Source: Accumulibacter sp. (lineage in GTDB: Bacteria; Pseudomonadota; Gammaproteobacteria; Burkholderiales; Rhodocyclaceae). Taken from it: 64,000 nucleotides of DNA. This document shows positions 51,292 to 61,291 of this stretch, piece after piece. The stretch covers positions 62,001 through 126,000 of the forward strand of contig NZ_JAMTDQ010000023.1 in NCBI RefSeq assembly GCF_023806635.1, given 5' to 3'. The position numbers and the translations under genes are program-made. The notes beneath the pieces were generated by a model. That model was given only the letters and a program-made list of their open reading frames with translations. It was not told where the DNA came from and searched no databases. The first letter of the stretch is position 1, and the number at the start of each line of letters is the position of its first letter.

Positions 51292-52821
51292 ATGCCCCGA
51301 CCCTTCCGCCTGACGACACCCGCCCTGGCTTGCGCCATCCTGCTGCCCGTGGTCAGCGTTCCTGCGCTGGCCGCACCGACGCTGAACAGCAGGGCCTGGA
51401 CCTATGCACACGACCCCGCCAATGGCTACCTGTCCGAGATCGTCTCTTTCGATAGCGCCAGCCAGACCCTGTGGGTGGCCGGCGTCAGTGGTGTGGACGT
51501 GCTGAACGCCCGCACCGGTTCGCTGGTGCAGCGCATCGACACCCGCGCCTACGGCAGCATCAACAGCGTGGCGATACACGGAGGCATTGCGGCCATGGCT
51601 TTTGAGGCATCGGTGCGCACCGATCCGGGCAATGTCCGCCTGTTCGACACCGCCACGCGCAGCCTTCTGGCCGGCACGAATACCTTTGCCGTCGGCGCTT
51701 TGCCCGACATGCTGACCTTCACGCCCGATGGCAGCAGGCTCCTGGTCGCCAACGAGGGGACGCCCAGTACCTACGGTGCCCTTGCTTCGGTGCCGGGTGT
51801 CTTCCCACGCACGTATGGACCAGCCGCGCTGGACCCGGCGGGCAGCGTCAGCATCATCGACATGGCCAGCCGCAGCGTCAGCGCAACGGCCACGCTGACC
51901 GGCGTGGCGACCGCAGGTACGCACATTCGCTCGAACACGGGCATGGACTTCGAGCCGGAGTACATCGCCATCAATGCCGCCGGGACGAAGGCCTACGTCT
52001 CGCTGCAGGAGGCCAACGCCATGGGCGTGCTGGACATCCAGAGCGGGTCCTTCGCACGGATCGTCGGCCTCGGCGTGAAGGACTTCAGCCTGCCGGGAAA
52101 CCGCATCGATCCCCTGAACGACGGCACACCGAGCCTGATCAACGTCAACGTCAAGGGTCTCTACCAACCCGATGCCATGGCCACCTTCGAACGCGGTGGC
52201 CAGACATTCGTGGTGATGGCCAACGAAGGCGATTACCGCGAAGACGATGGCGATCGCTCGAACGCCAGCTCGGCAGGCCTGAATGCCGCGCCACCACTGA
52301 ACGCACTGCGCGTGTCGAACACCGACTCGTCAGCTGGGAACCTGTTCACTGCCGGCGCGCGTTCGTTCTCGATTCGCGACGTCAACGGCACGCTGGTCTA
52401 CGACAGTGGCGAGATCCTCGACCGGGAAGCCATCGCCGCCGGCATCTATGACGACGGTCGCAGTCGTGACAAGGGCGTCGAGCCCGAAGGCGTGGAGTTG
52501 ATGGAGATCAACGGCCGCATCTTCGCCTTCATCGGTCTGGAACGTACGCTGCAGGCGGCGATTGCTGCGTTCGACATCACCGACCCGGCGAACACGAGCT
52601 TCGTCGGGCTGCTGGTCTCCAATGGCGACCGCGCGCCCGAAGGTCTCAAGGGATATGCTCTGGACGGGCAGTATTACCTGGCCTTTTCGAATGAAGCCTC
52701 GAGCACGACTTCGGTCTTCTGGCTGGCGTCGGTGCCGGAGCCCGGCAGCCTCGCACTGGCTGGCCTGGCGCTGGTGGCGGTGGTGGGGACGCAGGTGCGG
52801 CGGGCGCGCCGGGCGGCGTGA
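51292..52821 (+). CDS. PEP-CTERM-sorted choice-of-anchor I protein
   Basis: A 509-residue secreted protein. A cleavable signal (ALACAILLPVVSVPALA) is followed by a beta-propeller-like choice-of-anchor I domain: TLWVAGVSGVDVLNARTG, LTFTPDGSRLLVANEGTPS, AYVSLQEANAMGVLDI and VVMANEGDYRED. The tail at 481-509 is a canonical PEP-CTERM sorting signal: VPEPGS, a hydrophobic helix, then RRARRAA. Exosortase (EpsH/XrtA) would cleave it for export to the exopolysaccharide matrix; no exosortase gene is in the window. GGAG precedes the ATG. Control probably runs through the sigma-54-type promoter at 50815. Confidence 0.9.
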   Translation: MPRPFRLTTPALACAILLPVVSVPALAAPTLNSRAWTYAHDPANGYLSEIVSFDSASQTLWVAGVSGVDVLNARTGSLVQRIDTRAYGSINSVAIHGGIAAMAFEASVRTDPGNVRLFDTATRSLLAGTNTFAVGALPDMLTFTPDGSRLLVANEGTPSTYGALASVPGVFPRTYGPAALDPAGSVSIIDMASRSVSATATLTGVATAGTHIRSNTGMDFEPEYIAINAAGTKAYVSLQEANAMGVLDIQSGSFARIVGLGVKDFSLPGNRIDPLNDGTPSLINVNVKGLYQPDAMATFERGGQTFVVMANEGDYREDDGDRSNASSAGLNAAPPLNALRVSNTDSSAGNLFTAGARSFSIRDVNGTLVYDSGEILDREAIAAGIYDDGRSRDKGVEPEGVELMEINGRIFAFIGLERTLQAAIAAFDITDPANTSFVGLLVSNGDRAPEGLKGYALDGQYYLAFSNEASSTTSVFWLASVPEPGSLALAGLALVAVVGTQVRRARRAA

Positions 52822-52938: not shown

Positions 52939-54465
52939 TCAACCCTGGCGGCGGCCGTAGAGCCTCACCAGTTCGGCAAGCCGCCGGGCGTGTCCGTCGG
53001 CGACCTGGTGCCAGTCGAAGCGCCATTCCCAGGATCCTTCGCTCCGGCTCGGTTCGTTCATCCGGTGTGGCGAGTCGAGGCCGAGGACGTCCTGCATCGG
53101 GATGACGCAGAGCGTCGCCACCGAAGCGCAGGCGAGGCGGATCAGTTGCCAGTGCATCTCGCTGTCGGCGTCCTCATCTACCCCCAGATAGGAGCGCACG
53201 TAGGCCTGCTCGGGATGGCCGAGCGACTCCCACCAGCCGCGCGTCGTGTCGTTGTCGTGCGTGCCGGTGTAGACGACCGTATCGGCTTCGTAGTTGTGCG
53301 GCAGATAGGGGTTGCGGGGATCGCCGTCGAAGGCGAACTGCAGGATGCGCATTCCCGGCAGGCCGATCGCCTGTCGCAGGGCATTCACCTCCGGCGTGAT
53401 GATCCCGAGGTCTTCGGCGATGATCGGCAGGCGGCCTTGGCTGTCGCCCAGTTCGCGGCGCATCGCGGCGAAGACCGCTTCGCCCGGGCCCGGCCGCCAC
53501 TGGCCGTCGATCGCCGTCTCGGCAGCGGCGGGGATCTCCCAGAACGATTCGAAGCCGCGGAAATGATCGATGCGAACGACGTCGCACAGGGTCATCGTCT
53601 GGCGCATGCGGGCGACCCACCAGTGGTAGCCCTCGGCGGCATGCGCCGACCAGCGGTAGAGCGGATTGCCCCAGCGCTGGCCGGTGGCGCTGAAGTAGTC
53701 CGGTGGTACGCCGGCGACGACGCGCGGACGACCCTGCAGGTCGAGGTCGAAGAGGCCCGGATTCGCCCACACATCGGCGCTGTGCGCGGCGACGAAGATC
53801 GGCAGGTCGCCGACGATCGCGATGCGATGCTCGTTGGCGTAGCGCTTGATCGCCGCCCATTGCTCGGCGAAACGCCATTGGCAGAACTTCCAGAAGGCGA
53901 TCTCGTCGGCATGTTCGGCACGTGCTGCGCGCAGTGCGTCGGGGTGCCGGGCAGCGAGCGTCGCTGGCCAGTCCTGCCACATCCTGCCGTCGCCGCCGTG
54001 CGCGCGGTCGAGCGCCATGAACAGCGCGTAATCGTCGAGCCAGGGGTCGGCTGCGCTGCAGAAACGGCCAAAAGCCTTGTCCTGGGCCGCGTCGCGCCGC
54101 TCGCGGAAACGCTTCGCCGCCTTTCGCAACCGCGGCAGCCGATAGCGTCGGCAGGCGTCGTAATCGACCCGCCCGGCGGGGAAGGCCGGCAACGGCAGGA
54201 GATCGGCCTCGCTCAGCCAGCCGAGGTCGCGCAGCTGGCCGAGGTCGATCAGCAGTTCGCTGCCGGCGAAGGCCGATGGGCTGATGTAGGGCGAGTTGCC
54301 GGGTCCCACGCTGCCGAGTGGCAGTACCTGCCAGAGCGTCTGGCCGGCGCTGCGCAGCCAGTCGACGAAATGGTAGGCTGGCGGGCCGAGATCGCCGCAG
54401 CCGTGGGCGCCAGGGAGTGAGGTCGGGTGCAGGAGGATGCCGTTGCGGCGGGGAAGGGATGTCAT
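52939..54465 (-). CDS. malQ: 4-alpha-glucanotransferase (amylomaltase)
   Basis: A 508-residue GH77 enzyme that disproportionates maltooligosaccharides. Diagnostic motifs are NGILLHPTSLPG, QTLWQVLPLGSVGPGNSPY, the nucleophile Asp in VVRIDHFRGF, the acid/base Glu in IIAEDLGIITPEV, and GTHDNDTTRGWW. The length equals that of the short bacterial form. The ATG at 54465 begins at the conserved domain. It would recycle glycogen breakdown products; no other glycogen genes are adjacent. Divergent from the helicase fusion, 120 bp apart. Confidence 0.96.
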   Translation of the reverse strand: MTSLPRRNGILLHPTSLPGAHGCGDLGPPAYHFVDWLRSAGQTLWQVLPLGSVGPGNSPYISPSAFAGSELLIDLGQLRDLGWLSEADLLPLPAFPAGRVDYDACRRYRLPRLRKAAKRFRERRDAAQDKAFGRFCSAADPWLDDYALFMALDRAHGGDGRMWQDWPATLAARHPDALRAARAEHADEIAFWKFCQWRFAEQWAAIKRYANEHRIAIVGDLPIFVAAHSADVWANPGLFDLDLQGRPRVVAGVPPDYFSATGQRWGNPLYRWSAHAAEGYHWWVARMRQTMTLCDVVRIDHFRGFESFWEIPAAAETAIDGQWRPGPGEAVFAAMRRELGDSQGRLPIIAEDLGIITPEVNALRQAIGLPGMRILQFAFDGDPRNPYLPHNYEADTVVYTGTHDNDTTRGWWESLGHPEQAYVRSYLGVDEDADSEMHWQLIRLACASVATLCVIPMQDVLGLDSPHRMNEPSRSEGSWEWRFDWHQVADGHARRLAELVRLYGRRQG

Positions 54466-54585
54466 GCCGGTCCTTGTCGGTGTCGTCGGTCGGTGCCCGC
54501 GGTCGGGGCGTTGAGGTGCCGTAATGCTAACCTGCAACGGCCTGCGCGGTCACCGTCGGCGTTGCCGGCGGTTATCATCGCGTCC

Positions 54586-57500
54586 ATGAGCGATGCTTCT
54601 CCACGGGGCAGCAGCGAACGGCCGTTCAGGCCACGCTGCCTGTCGATCGATCTGGAGGTCGGGCTGCGTAGTGGGCGCATCCGGCAACTGGCTGCAGTGC
54701 GCGGCGACAGCGGCGAGCGGTTGCACTGCCGCGTCGGCGATCTGGCAGCGGCGCTCGCCCGTCTCGATGCACTGGCCAGCGGTTGCAGCTTCGTCCTCGG
54801 GCACAATCTGCTCGCCTTCGACCGCCCGCATCTGGCCGCGGTCGCGCCGCGACTGCGACTCCTCGAACTGCCGGTCGTCGACACGCTGTGGCTGAATCCG
54901 TTGGCCTTTCCACGCCACCCGTATCACCACCTCGTCAAGCACTACCAGGACGGCGGGCTCAGGCGTGCACAGCTGAACGACCCGCTGCTCGATGCACAGC
55001 TGGCCCTCGATCTGTTCCGCGATCAGATGCTCGCGCTGCAGCAGCGGCAGCGCGAGGAACCCGACCTGATGCTCGCCTGGCACTGGCTGACGACCTCGGG
55101 GCAATCGTCGGCGGCGGTCCACAGCCTGTTCGCGACGCTCCGCCGGCGACCGCGCCCGGACGACACCGAGGCGCGACAGGCGATCTCCCGCCTGCTCGCC
55201 GGCCGGGGCTGTGCGCAGCATGCCCTGGAAGTCGTGGACGCGGCCGCGGCGAGTGGCTGGTCGCTGGCCTACGCGCTCGCCTGGCTGTCGGTCGCCGGCG
55301 GCAATTCGGTCTTGCCGCCTTGGGTGCGCCACCAGTTCCCCGCTGCCGGCCAGCTCATCGGGCATCTGCGCGATGTCGACTGTGCCCGGGCCGACTGCTG
55401 CTGGTGCCGCGAACACCACGACGCACGGCGGGAACTTCGGCGCTGGTTTGGCTTTGCCGATTTCCGGGCGGAACCGGCTGCGGCCGACGGGGATTCGTTG
55501 CAGCAGCGCATCGTCGAGGCGGCGCTGCGTGGCGAGCACCTGCTGGCGATCCTGCCGACCGGTAGCGGCAAGTCCCTGTGCTACCAGATTCCGGCGCTGT
55601 CGCGCTTCACCCGGATCGGTGCACTGAGCGTCGTGATCTCGCCGCTGGTGGCGCTGATGGCCGACCAGGTGGCCGGCTTGCGCAGCCGTGGCATCGATGC
55701 CTGTGTCGCCATCAACGGCCTGCTGTCGATGCCCGAGCGGGCCGACGCGCTCGATCGCGTGCGCCTCGGCGATGTCGGCATCGTCATCGTCTCGCCCGAA
55801 CAGCTGCGCAGCCCGATGCTGCGCAAGGTGCTGGCGCAACGGGAGATCGGCGCCTGGATTCTCGACGAGGCGCACTGCCTGTCGAAGTGGGGCCACGACT
55901 TCCGGCCCGACTACCGCTACGTCGCGCGCTTCATCCGCGAGCAGGCCGGCGATGCGCCGGTGCCGCCGGTGATGTGCCTGACGGCAACCGCCAAGCCCGA
56001 CGTGGTCGCCGACATCGTTGCCCACTTCACCGACCGGGTCGGCATCGATCTGCGTCTGTTCGACGGCGGCGCGAGTCGCCACAACCTCGACTTCGCGGTG
56101 CTGCCGACGACGCCGGCCGCGAAGCTGGCGCACATCCATGAGCTGCTGGCCGCCGAGTTGCCCGCCGACGGATCGGGTGGCGCCATCGTCTATTGCGCGA
56201 CGCGTGGCAACAGCGAGGAAGTGGCTGCCTTCCTGCGACAGAAGGGGATGGCGGCGGCCCATTTCCATGCCCGGCTGCCGCCCGAAAGCAGGAAGAACGT
56301 CCAGGAGGCGTTCATCCGCGGCGATCTGCGGGTGATCGCCGCGACCAACGCCTTCGGCATGGGCATCGACAAGCCGGACGTGCGCCTGGTGGTGCACGCC
56401 GACATTCCGGGATCGCTCGAGAACTACCTGCAGGAGGCGGGCCGCGCCGGCCGCGATCAGCAGGCGGCGCGCTGCGTCCTCCTGTACGCGACGGAGGACG
56501 TCGAGCGGCAGTTCGGCATGTCGGCGCGCTCGCGGCTGAGCCGCCGGGAAATCCAGGCGATCCTGCGCGCCCTGCGGCAGCTCGATCGTCGCCAGCGCCG
56601 GGGTGGGGAAGTCGTTGCCACCGCCGGCGAGATCCTGGCCGAGGAAGACGAGGGCGAGTTCGAGCGTGACGCCACGACCGACGACACGCGCGTCCGCACG
56701 GCGGTCTGCTGGCTCGAGGAAGCGCAGCTGCTGACGCGCGAGGAGAACCGGGTGCAGGTCTTCCCGTCGTCGCTGCGCGTTGCCTCGCTCGAGCAGGCGC
56801 GGCAGCGGCTGGCACGCGTCAGGCTGCAGGCCGAATATCAGCGACAGTTGCTGGCGCTGGTCGAGGCGCTGATCGGCGCGCCGCCGGACGAGGGATTGTC
56901 GACCGACGAACTGATGGCCGTCAGCGGTCTCGCCCCGGAACGGCTGCGGGCTGCCCTGTACGATCTCGAGCGGCTGGGGATCGCGAGCAACGACACTGCC
57001 CTGACCGCCTACCTGCAGGTCGGCGTCGACAACCCGTCTGCGCAACGACTGGCCAGCGCCGCGCAGCTCGAGAAGGCGCTGATCGACCTGTTGCGCGAGC
57101 AGGCGCCCGATCTCGCGCGCGGCGAATCGTCGCTGCTCCACCTGCGACGCCTGAGCCAGCGCCTGCAGGATGATGGCCATCGGCAGGCGCTGCCGGCGAG
57201 GCTGCGGCAACTGCTGGGGAGCCTCGCCGCAGACGGTCGCGGCGACGAGGGCGGTGTCGGCAGCCTCGCGATGCGGCGAATCGATGCCGAAACGGTGACG
57301 ATCGTCCTGCAGCGCGACTGGTCGGCGCTGGCGCGAACGGCCGAGCTTCGCCGCGCCGCTGCCACCCACCTGCTCGACCATCTGCTGGCCTGCCTGGCGC
57401 CAGGCTCGCGTGGTGCCGACCTGCTCGCCGAGACGACGCTCGGCAGGCTGCTCGCAGCCATCGAGGGCGACCTGCTGCTCAAGGCGGAGGTCAGGGAGTG

Positions 57501-59751
57501 TGCCCGCCTGCTCGACCGGGCTCTGCTCTGGCTGCACGAGCAGGAGGTGATCCGTCTCAACAAGGGGCTGGCGGTCTTCCGGCCGGCGATGACCATCCGC
57601 CTCGATGCGGACTGGAAACGCCGGTTCCGGCAGCCGGATTTCGCGCCGCTGCAGCTGCACTACGCAGAACAGGTGCTGCAGATCCACGTCATGGCGGAGT
57701 ACGTGCAGCGCGGACTGCGGGCGATGGCCGATGCGCTGCAGCTGACGCTGGATTACTTCCGGCTGTCGCGGGCCGAGTTCATGCAGCGCTGGCTGCCCGC
57801 ACGGCAGCAGGAGGTGGCGCGGCAGACGACGCCGCAGTCGTGGCGACAGATCGTCGAGGTCCTGGCGAATCCGGAGCAGCAGGCGATCGTCGCCGACGAC
57901 CGCGAAAGCGGTAATGTGCTCGTTCTCGCCGGACCGGGTTCGGGCAAGACGCGCGTCGTCGTCCATCGCATCGCCTATCTGCTGCGGGTGCGCCGCGAGA
58001 ATCCGCGCGGCATTCTGGCGTTGGCCTACAATCGCCACGCCGCGGTGCAGATTCGCCAGCGGCTGGCGGCACTGGTCGGTGACGACGGGCGGGCGGTCAG
58101 CGTCCTGACCTGCGATGCCCTGGCGATGCGGCTGGTCGGCGCCAGCTTCGCCGGGCGCGAACGGCAGCTGGCCGACGGCGGTCTGGAGGCTGCGTTGCAG
58201 ACCATCCGGCGACGCGCCGTCGCCCTGCTGCGCGGCGACGAAGGGCCGCCCGAGGACGCCGACGAGCAGCGCGAGCGACTGCTGCGCGGCCTGCGCTGGA
58301 TCCTGGTGGACGAGTACCAGGACATCGGTCCGCAGCAGTATGAGCTGATCGCCGCGCTGGCGGGGCGCAACCTGGCCGCCGCGGATGCTCGGCTGAACCT
58401 CTTCGCCGTCGGCGACGACGATCAGAACATCTACGCCTTCAGTGGCGCATCGGTCGAGTTCATCCGCCGCTTCGCGGCCGACTACGGCGCCCGGACGCTG
58501 CATCTGGTGGACAACTACCGCTCGACGGCACACCTGATCGAAATCGCCAACCAGGTGATCGCGCCAGCGGCGCAGCGCATGAAGGCTGCCCAACCGATCC
58601 GCATCGACGCTGCGCGCCGGCAACTGCCGCCGGGCGGCGAGTGGGCGCGGATCGACGCCGTGGCGCAGGGTCGCGTGCAGATCCTGCCGGCGGGCCAGGG
58701 CGCGCGAACGCAGGCGCTGGCGGTGATCGGCGAACTGCAGCGCCTGGCCGACCTGACGGCCGCATGGGACTGGGCACGCTGCGCCGTGATCGCGCGCGAG
58801 TGGCAATGGCTGGAACCGGTGCGCAGCCACTGCGAGCGGCAGGGCCTGCCGGTCCAGGTCGCGCGTGAGGAGGGCCTGCACTTCTGGCGGCAACGGGAAA
58901 CGCAACAATTGCTCGACTGGCTGCACGATGCCGGTTCGCTCGTCACTGGGCGAACGATCGCTGGTTGGGTTGCCGGGCAGGCGTCGACATCGGCCTGGGA
59001 GATGCTCACTGAAGCGGTTGCCGAATACCGCGCTGAAACCGGTGATGCCGAGCTGCCGCGGCAGCATTTCATCGAGTGGCTGGTCGACTGGGGCCGTGAA
59101 GCCCGGCGTCGGCAGAGCGGGTTGTTGTTGCTCACGGCGCACCGGGCGAAGGGACTCGAGTTCGATCATGTCGCGGTCCTCGATGGCGGCTGGGGACCAG
59201 GCAGCCGGCACGATGCTCCGGTGGACGCCGACGCCGAACGGCGCCTGTACTACGTGGCGATGACCCGCGCGCGGCAGACGCTGCTGCTGGCGCAGTTCGC
59301 CCGGCGTGTGCCACTGCTCGACGCACTGCCCGCGTCCGCCGCCCTGCTGCGCCGACTGCCTGTGGCGCTGCCGGCGCCGCCGGCCGAGCTGTCCTGGCAG
59401 TACCGGCAGCTCCACCCTGGCGAGGTGGACATTGGCTTTGCCGGGCGCCGGGCAGCGGGCCATCCGGTGCAGCGAGCCATCGCCGCGCTGCAACCGGGAG
59501 ACCCGCTGCACCTGCGCCACGAGGGCCGGCGCTGGCTGCTGCTGGACATGAAGGACCGGCTGGTCGGCCGTCTCGCCGCCAGCTACGCGCCGCCGGTCGG
59601 GATGAAGTGCGTCGCCGCGCGCGTTGCGGCGATCGTGGTCCGCTGGCGAAGAGATGACCACTCGACCGAGCACGCGCACCGGATCCGCTGCGAACGCTGG
59701 GAGATCGTCCTGCCGGAGCTGGTGTTCGCCCCGGCGCACAGCGGCGCATAG
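54586..59751 (+). CDS. Giant helicase fusion: DEDD exonuclease-like + RecQ (SF2) + UvrD/PcrA (SF1)
   Basis: A 1721-residue protein. Residues 1-150 look like a DnaQ/DEDD exonuclease (SIDLEVG with Asp22/Glu24; [23 protein letters not shown]). A Cys/His cluster follows (Cys266, 271, 272, 274, His277, 278), possibly zinc-binding. The RecQ core has Walker A TGSGKS near 326, DEAH at 427-430 with [12 protein letters not shown], and QEAGRAGRD; the usual RQC zinc cysteines are missing. A helical linker (about 680-1080) leads to a full SF1 helicase: AGPGSGKT near 1116, DEYQD at 1242, [14 protein letters not shown], and [13 protein letters not shown] near 1517. It is presumably a DNA repair or anti-element enzyme. 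No Shine-Dalgarno is evident before ATG 54586; no partner genes are adjacent. Confidence 0.88.
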
Positions 59752-59820
59752 TCTGGTCCATTTCACCGAAGAGAATCGCCTTTCGCATTGCGGAAGACGT
59801 CGGCTAAGCAGCTGTTTCGG

Positions 59821-59992: not shown

Positions 59993-61291
59993 ATGAGCAC
60001 TAGAGAGCAACAGATCGCCGAACTCGAGAAGGACTGGGCCGAGAACCCCCGCTGGAAGGGAATCAAGCGGGGCTATTCGGCGGCCGATGTCGTCCGCCTG
60101 CGCGGCTCGTTCCCGATCGAGTACACGGTCGCCCGGCGCGGCGCGGAGAAGCTCTGGAAGCTGGTCAATAGCGAACCCTATGTCAACTGCCTCGGCGCGC
60201 TGACCGGCGGTCAGGCGATGCAACAGGTCAAGGCGGGAGTCAAGGCGATCTACCTGTCGGGCTGGCAGGTTGCCGCCGACAACAACTCCTACGCCGCGAT
60301 GTATCCCGACCAGTCGCTGTACCCGGTCGACTCGGTACCGAAGGTCGTCGAGCGCATCAACAACTCCTTCCGCCGCGCCGATGAAATCCAGTTCTCGAAA
60401 GGCGTGAACCCCGGCGACAACGGCTACATCGATTACTTCGCACCGATCGTGGCGGACGCCGAGGCCGGTTTCGGCGGCGTGCTGAACGCGTTCGAACTGA
60501 TGAAGGCGATGATCCGGGCCGGCGCGGGCGGGGTGCACTGGGAAGACCAGCTGGCGTCGGTCAAGAAATGCGGCCACATGGGTGGCAAGGTGTTGGTGCC
60601 GACGCAGGAAGCCGTGCAGAAGCTGATCGCCGCCCGTTTCGCCGCCGACGTCTGCGGTGTGCCGACGCTGGTGATCGCGCGTACCGATGCCGAGGCGGCC
60701 GACCTGCTGACTTCAGACTGTGACGAGAACGACCGGCCCTTCGTCACCGGCGAGCGCACCTCGGAAGGATTCTACAAGACCCGCAAGGGTCTGCAGCAGG
60801 CGATCTCGCGTGCCGTCGCCTATGCCGAATACGCCGACCTCGTGTGGTGCGAGACCGGTACCCCGGATCTCGAGTTCGCCCGCCAGTTCGCCGAGGCGGT
60901 GCGCGGCAAGCACCCGGGCAAGCTGCTGGCGTACAACTGCTCGCCGTCGTTCAACTGGAAGAAGAACCTCGACGACGCGACGATCGCCAAGTTCCAGCGC
61001 GAACTCGGCGCGATGGGCTACAAGTACCAGTTCATCACCCTCGCCGGCATCCACAACATGTGGTACCACATGTTCGACCTGGCGCAGGACTATGTCGCGC
61101 GCGGCATGACGGCCTACGTCGAGAAGGTGCAGGAACCCGAGTTCGCTGCCCGTGACCGCGGCTATACCTTCGTCTCGCACCAGCAGGAGGTGGGTACCGG
61201 TTACTTCGACGAGGTGACGACGGTCATCCAGGGTGGCACTTCGTCGGTCACGGCACTGACCGGATCGACCGAGGAAGAGCAGTTCCACTAG
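59993..61291 (+). CDS. aceA: Isocitrate lyase
   Basis: A 432-residue isocitrate lyase that splits isocitrate to glyoxylate and succinate, first step of the glyoxylate shunt. The signature KKCGHMGGK has the catalytic Cys193. WEDQL, the acidic block [12 protein letters not shown] and the C-terminal [29 protein letters not shown] region are intact. GAGGA precedes the ATG at 59993. It stands alone, with a strong promoter region upstream and a terminator downstream; malate synthase is not in the window. It competes with Icd, which is regulated by the AceK encoded at 19 kb. Confidence 0.97.

Follow-up and report, generated by a model that had tools for sequence, protein, structure and literature searches.

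What would one polypeptide do with an exonuclease and two helicase motors from different superfamilies? This question is raised by a gene on a 64,000-nucleotide stretch of an Accumulibacter sp. genome (contig NZ_JAMTDQ010000023.1, positions 62,001 to 126,000; hereafter the window), where positions 54586..59751 of the plus strand, from the ATG at 54586 to the stop codon at 59749-59751, hold a complete gene for a 1721-residue fusion of a DEDD exonuclease-like domain, a RecQ-type helicase core and a UvrD-like helicase. Helicase-nuclease engines are central to DNA repair and bacterial immunity, and no description of RecQ, UvrD and DEDD parts in one chain was found in the open-licence PMC literature; plasmid records label the fusion ‘RecQ family ATP-dependent DNA helicase’. 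We regard the anatomy and reality of this fusion family as virtually certain and its accessory, horizontally spread character as highly probable, and we tentatively favor a role against invading DNA.

The fusion recurs well beyond the window. Our alignment comprises 92 rows, the query and 91 relatives (88 distinct once the three near-copies L070, L092 and L014 are set aside; L062, L078 and L023, with split matches, are omitted), and these relatives align over most of the length with both ATPase sites kept. A sequencing or assembly artefact was therefore rejected, given that 88 distinct relatives carry the fusion. The initial annotation had proposed a triple fusion that would fall either to a sequencing error or to the lack of a predicted DEDD fold at the N-terminus, and neither proved to be the case. 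Of the 592 pattern matches in a contig search, at least 581 code for tblastn-level relatives of the query, a figure that may include ordinary RecQ or UvrD kin, and 78 of the best 80 relatives align over more than 1400 residues. The closest named relatives, from Accumulibacter genomes, are 77% and 74% identical to the query. The same architecture is found at 26-37% identity in Cyanobacteriota, Deinococcota, Bacteroidota and Campylobacterota, including six distant plasmid-borne relatives in this identity range (Calothrix, Deinococcus, Phocaeicola, Aliarcobacter, Bacteroides and Pseudanabaena).

The N-terminal domain (residues ~17-205, 54634..55200, +; limits by eye) has a predicted fold core up to residue ~157 followed by helices, and is assigned from a structure model, Foldseek and a profile match to DinG. 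AlphaFold2 models residues 1-300 with a predicted local distance difference test score (pLDDT) of 92 and a predicted template modeling score (pTM) of 0.88, and Foldseek matches this model to DEDD exonucleases, as had been suspected from the letters alone: a DnaQ domain and TREX1-like, Staphylococcus aureus DinG, RNase T and T7-polymerase entries, at modest E-values (best 6.6e-4; three of 337 matches at E<=0.001). A 56-row profile searched against the PDB has S. aureus DinG, over its exonuclease, as its top match (E 3.4e-4); the second match is an unrelated viral envelope construct at E 0.0027, so the margin of the DinG match is small. Pfam gave no match on query residues 1-300, and on the 56 rows it gave weak RNase_T in six (best E 0.0028) and weak DNA_pol_B_exo1 in nine (best E 0.0046).

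Conservation at the predicted active site is nearly complete. Motif I, D22-x-E24 (54649..54657, +), is present in 90 of the 92 rows with two gaps, while motif II, G72-H73-N74 ... D79 (54799..54822, +), the invariant lysine K118 ahead of motif III (54937..54939, +) and D136 of motif III, N131-x-P-x2-D136 (54976..54993, +), are each present in 91 rows with one gap. The gaps in the tetrad come from L039 and L103, whose open reading frames (ORFs) start late; the DEDD tetrad is kept wherever a row reaches, and with near-copies removed its residues stand in 87 or 88 of 89 rows. A predicted RNase H-like fold with four acidic residues places the domain in the DEDD superfamily, and it belongs to neither the DEDDh nor the DEDDy subclass, which carry His or Tyr in motif III. 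Here a conserved Asn takes that place (Asn in 88 of the 92 aligned rows, Ser in three, one gap), a replacement that the initial annotation missed. In the profile comparison with the PDB, N131 aligns with a His of S. aureus DinG that we take to be its catalytic His. By eye, all six distant plasmid-borne relatives keep D-x-E, GHN..D and N-x-P-x2-D, and two further deep relatives also have the Asn at motif III. Because the catalytic His or Tyr is replaced by a conserved Asn, nuclease activity is uncertain on the evidence of the sequence.

The RecQ-type superfamily 2 (SF2) core follows at residues ~277-658 (55414..56559, +), with its Walker A lysine at K329, a DEAH box at 427-430 and motif VI at 616-623. 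Pfam recognizes DEAD (4.9e-33) and Helicase_C (1.5e-20) in the fusion, the NCBIfam model recQ_fam scores 306 bits against a cut-off of 219.8, and motifs I, II (DEAH) and VI and the aromatic-rich loop of the SF2 core place this part in the RecQ family. It is not a canonical RecQ: the equivalog TIGR01389 reaches 336.7 bits against a cut-off of 640.2 and aligns over profile positions 4-352 of 591 only. Since the RecQ model stops there, and HRDC is absent among the 10 Pfam rows for the fusion protein, neither RQC nor HRDC is seen at the sequence level. The ensuing middle region (residues 659-1090, 56560..57855, +) spans ~430 mostly helical residues, modeled at a pLDDT of 88, with some weak winged-helix-like matches. 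In Foldseek a model of residues 635-1092 matched nothing at E<=0.001, nor does a RecQ figure in the best 50 matches; the top weak ones are mixed, several of them winged-helix by name (6h24, 5meb, ROQ, RepE). An RQC-like middle region is thus unsupported, and there is no sign of the RQC zinc motif, in support of the earlier observation.

The second motor is a UvrD-like superfamily 1 (SF1) helicase at residues ~1095-1575 (57868..59310, +; Walker A K1121, DEYQD 1242-1246), followed by a moderately conserved C-terminal tail (residues 1576-1721, 59311..59748, +). SF1A motifs I-VI and the Pfam matches UvrD-helicase (4.7e-36; 125.3 bits, cut-off 23) and UvrD_C (1.4e-17) place it among UvrD/Rep helicases, and the full-length equivalogs are not reached (uvrD 156 vs 1144.45 bits, pcrA 162.6 vs 911.2). 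K329 and the DEAH box, as well as K1121 and DEYQD, are found in 92 of 92 rows, and four recounted helicase positions are found in 89 of 89 rows once near-copies are removed, confirming two complete helicase cores with intact ATPase motifs. In the distant relatives the helicase motifs are recognizable by eye with local changes, such as DEVH in Calothrix and an altered RecQ motif VI in the Deinococcus and Aliarcobacter relatives; the frame of the Pseudanabaena relative ends early, in UvrD motif VI. Separately, a Sphaerotilus plasmid (L131, 7746-9800) encodes a UvrD-like helicase on its own, which aligns with residues 1095-1714, and hence also with the tail, at 37.6% identity and may be related to the source of the SF1 half.

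Between nuclease and RecQ core, the initial annotation had drawn a CxxxxCCxC..HH cluster. Conserved cysteines do lie there, but the pattern is C209 (55210..55212, +) plus C266-x4-C271-x2-C274 (55381..55407, +), each residue in 91 of the 92 rows with one gap; C272 is a Cys in the query alone (1/92) and H277 and H278 vary, so that the cluster as first drawn was rejected. By eye, all four cysteines are kept in both Bacteroidota relatives and the set is absent in the Calothrix, Deinococcus, Aliarcobacter and Pseudanabaena relatives; it is also absent in two class-level relatives, L144 and L229 (L142 and L229 being one gene). That the four are either all present or all absent supports one site, which is probably a metal-binding one, judging from this co-occurrence. 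Its spacing, one isolated Cys and a cluster of three, resembles the iron-sulfur (Fe-S) arrangement of AddB/DNA2-type enzymes; zinc is therefore not to be assumed and is not assured as the metal. The deep relatives L125, L126, L128, L130, L229 and L144 have the DEDD and N-x-P-x2-D motifs without the four cysteines.

Several known systems share parts of this design. WRN, a eukaryotic DEDDy enzyme with RQC and HRDC, likewise has a DEDD exonuclease ahead of a RecQ core within a single chain; the fusion differs in its Asn at motif III, the lack of an RQC match and the extra SF1 motor. The RecQ core is shared with RqlH/PsyrT and DpdF of toxin-antitoxin and defense systems (DpdF 2.4e-115, PsyrT 5.4e-89), but these profiles match residues ~277-682 only and leave the exonuclease and UvrD parts unmatched. 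GajB and other UvrD-like defense helicases share the UvrD core (1.2e-50); GajB is a separate subunit partnered with GajA, whereas the UvrD part here is joined to exonuclease and RecQ. RecBCD, AddAB and the DNA2-like Bad also unite motor and nuclease in one machine, yet their nuclease is of the PD-(D/E)XK superfamily, different from that of the fusion, and they are not known to have a RecQ motor. Gram-positive DinG, the closest solved exonuclease by profile, also has its exonuclease at the N-terminus, with a His where the fusion has N131 and with no RecQ or UvrD part. DinG has one XPD-like motor (PMC12525004), and Bad is reported to run 5'-3' and to have an Fe-S cluster whose likely ligands are four cysteines (PMC7430649).

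The distribution of the gene is patchy. At the phylum level, matches exceed 1300 residues in at least 15 of 398 genomes, own genome included; the rest of those listed are to the RecQ core only. By the exonuclease profile, in a count that takes in fragments and weak matches, the gene occurs in 13 of 369 genomes at the class level, in 39 of 248 genomes of one family, and in 24 of 61 relatives closer to home: 22 of 28 in the genus, none of nine in other genera of the family and two of 24 in the order. E. coli has no blastn-level match to the first 3915 bases of the gene. The full-length fusion is scattered across several phyla rather than existing only as separate genes, the point on which the initial annotation had sought a survey. 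In a FastTree phylogeny of 85 rows the phyla are mixed, with 13 label changes over 76 labeled rows (minimum 9, shuffled mean 20.8); the tree is thus clustered by phylum yet not cleanly vertical, though contigs binned wrongly can inflate the mixing. A canonical RecQ occurs alongside the fusion in 60 of 66 carriers, so that in most of them the fusion has not taken its place.

Moreover, the gene is found on mobile elements. At a cover of at least 80%, the query is matched by 16 plasmid records and by none of 50,697 phage records, on which ground an origin as a phage gene was rejected. Five IMG/VR viral contigs (L260-L264) encode the exonuclease; in four the protein is almost entire, in the fifth it is truncated where the contig stops, and some neighbors on L261-L264 look phage-like by eye.

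Copies within the genus differ in sequence and in site. Among the 21 other carriers we examined the stretches of 20 (G770 left out). Seven (L167-L172 and L174) share the arrangement of the window, the gene being next to isocitrate lyase and 73-98% identical to the query, with residues ~382-572 missing from the L171 copy. L173 holds residues 1-379 and malQ, whereas L184 retains isocitrate lyase with no gene match at E<=1e-30, the profile alone showing a fragment with a stop; L182 likewise has no gene match at this threshold. Copies sited elsewhere are 74% (L175), 66-67% (L165, L166, L176, L180) or 45-52% identical (L177, L178, L179, L181, L183, with one weaker end piece in L183). These identity classes at differing sites indicate that a single genus holds at least three diverged groups, as judged by identity to the query rather than by a tree. 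Some copies are interrupted: ~2.4 kb lie between residues 14-114 and 114-1716 in L180 (9768-12199), where the next ORF in order has 794 amino acids, and the L181 and L183 copies are split over frames, all of which are decay or assembly faults.

What, then, is the fusion for? Its accessory, mobile distribution leans to defense or mobile-element biology, and a self-contained accessory-genome helicase-exonuclease directed at invading DNA is the most likely, if tentative, answer. For the substrate, polarity, coupling, nuclease activity, metal and defense role we infer the following scheme. The enzyme would load at a gap, a fork or a single-stranded 3' end; the RecQ and UvrD-like motors, from two families of 3'-5' polarity, would both run 3'-5' and open the duplex; the DEDD domain would degrade or grip the 3' end of the tracked strand, in the same direction as the motors; and the four-cysteine site, as a putative metal-binding element, may staple the nuclease to RecQ. 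The fusion opens two questions to experiment: how a single substrate is shared between two motors expected to have the same polarity, and whether a DEDD site with Asn can catalyze. For action on invading DNA we count the kept ATPase sites and tetrad, the patchy presence, the mixed-phylum tree, the diverged genus copies, the plasmid and viral-contig copies, and the canonical RecQ beside the fusion in most carriers, together with neighbors that include a type I-D CRISPR system, type I restriction-modification (RM), type IV restriction, Druantia- and Mokosh-like genes, PDC-S36 candidates and HNH proteins. If the defense role is true, it adds a widespread system (found in the 39 of 248 genomes of one family given above) now filed as a RecQ helicase. 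A bolder version, an undescribed single-gene anti-mobile-element machine with two 3'-5' motors of different superfamilies, a ‘DEDDn’ exonuclease subclass and an Fe-S-like four-Cys staple, spread over many phyla and repeatedly reacquired in the genus, strikes us as doubtful.

The neighborhoods provide examples of such company. Type I-D CRISPR lies 4-5 kb from the fusion gene on a Thiothrix plasmid; in Allochromatium a type I RM system is found within 1-7 kb, and toxin-antitoxin genes are ~1-5 kb away on Rhizobium, Cereibacter and Sulfitobacter plasmids. In a matched test, 20 gene stretches were fetched, 17 with a control, and 16 pairs remained after L227 was dropped (no family ORF above the score limit), L223 contributing only six neighbor ORFs. 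With control stretches taken from the genomes of the gene loci and 126 ORFs on each side, 58 PADLOC families were matched on the gene side vs 35 on the control side (E<=1e-15), the best 25 per side being considered below. Defense genes could be placed at three loci, namely type IV restriction at L216 and L226, DruE at L222 and a Mokosh-like gene at L226, a placement that rescanned eight of the 126 proteins and then four more; PtuA, PtuB and PDC-S33 are in the gene-side tally and were not placed at loci, and the control stretches hold type II RM and kinase-like matches. Pfam neighbor tallies were 122 vs 120 families, and McrBC (2) and AAA_21 (4), on the gene side only among the best 25 families per side, are not decisive. 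Across the 91 loci, PADLOC-matching clusters (PDC-S36, type IV restriction, HNH, type III methylase, PDC-S01) touch 15, a count made without a control from one representative per BLAST cluster. Within 25 kb of the fusion in the 66 carriers lie two of 12 strong type IV restriction matches (0.16 expected; 2/23 with weak matches, 0.30 expected) and two of 15 PDC-S36 copies (0.20 expected), as against one of 60 canonical recQ genes as a control (0.8 expected). This evidence is suggestive and falls short of proof.

Several of these observations weigh against action on invading DNA, however. The matched test is small, with placed defense genes at three of 16 gene loci vs at least one of 16 controls. 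Proximity was tested for three defense families only and is partly circular, as type IV restriction and PDC-S36 were picked after seeing G946, G966 and G023, which leaves only G367 as new (one of 15 PDC-S36 copies, P ~0.18). The third family, N6 methylases, is not enriched near the fusion (3/141 vs 1.8 expected, P 0.26), and enrichment of these was rejected. The annotated Calothrix, Deinococcus, Aliarcobacter, Bacteroides and Microvirga plasmid neighborhoods have no defense gene by name; that of Phocaeicola carries no annotation. Among the 10 window ORFs scanned there is no clear defense gene, a PP2C-like protein being the sole match to a PADLOC candidate model (5.8e-15), and among the best 25 of 85 matches of the fusion itself to PADLOC-DB 2.0.0 no model covers the whole protein, each matching best in one helicase part. 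The Asn at position 131, finally, may mean a dead nuclease. The inspection of neighborhoods advised by the initial annotation thus has a mixed outcome: defense genes are near copies in some genomes, but their enrichment is weak and none is clear at the window copy.

The main rival is an accessory enzyme for DNA repair or fork restart, a kind of bacterial WRN to which a UvrD motor has been added and which owes its horizontal spread to its benefit under damage or replication stress. The exonuclease-RecQ order is that of WRN, whose cores are among the PDB matches, and the window copy sits among housekeeping genes in a genus where 22 of 28 genomes have the gene, fragments included; furthermore, the solved exonuclease closest to the profile is that of DinG, which has been linked to overcoming replication stress (PMC12525004). 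Such an enzyme fits less well with the patchy presence elsewhere, with diverged copies at differing sites in one genus, with broken, plasmid and viral-contig copies, and with a canonical recQ in 60 of 66 carriers, and we consider it rather unlikely. Less likely still is a helper that processes replication or transfer intermediates of the plasmids, prophages or integrative elements carrying it. The 16 plasmid records and five viral contigs, several beside phage-like genes by eye, would suit this role, as would the parA/parB genes adjoining the Aliarcobacter copy and the ssb and parA genes 2.5-6 kb from the Bacteroides copy; other copies are chromosomal, such as that in the window, the phage records contain no match of sufficient cover, and no recurrent replication or transfer partner was seen by eye among the best 30 neighbor clusters of the 91 loci.

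Compatible with any of these roles, the N-terminal domain could be a pseudo-nuclease that binds 3' ends for a two-motor helicase without nuclease action. This would account for an Asn in place of the general-base His or Tyr in 88 of 92 rows, in all six distant plasmid relatives and in two more deep ones; it sits poorly with four metal-binding acidic residues kept wherever rows reach, which mere binding would not need, and we hold it to be possible and on the unlikely side.

More generally, no conserved operon partner was seen by eye among the same 30 clusters, the largest of which, an ABC transporter ATPase by eye, touches 12 of 91 loci at a median of 8 kb. Transposase genes make up five of 17 features in the Microvirga neighborhood. 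On the Pseudanabaena plasmid (L130, 5823-7028) a WYL-domain regulator sits immediately upstream of the fusion, and hypothetical genes and genes for large helicases lie further out.

In its own genome, a 4.47-Mb draft of 119 contigs (99.99% complete), the fusion gene stands alone, as first described. It is flanked by two genes outside the system, a divergent 4-alpha-glucanotransferase gene (malQ; 52939..54465, -, start 54465) and isocitrate lyase (aceA; 59993..61291, +, start 59993), with no repair operon around it. The genome also encodes a canonical RecQ, which passes its cut-off at 793.9 bits, together with a UvrD-like helicase of full length (974.7 bits, under the uvrD cut-off of 1144.45), and the fusion is therefore an extra. 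An antisense open frame of 1738 amino acids (54550-59766, -) spans the whole fusion gene; it was rejected as a gene and looks like a GC-driven shadow, because none of 91 relatives keeps at least 1500 open antisense codons. Beyond the window, a tyrosine integrase lies on the same contig ~14 kb downstream of the fusion gene (C23:136064-136588), and G761, with a 98% identical copy, likewise has a tyrosine integrase ~15 kb from it. Within the window, a choice-of-anchor I family protein is encoded at 51292-52821 (+; 485 bits vs a 300-bit cut-off).

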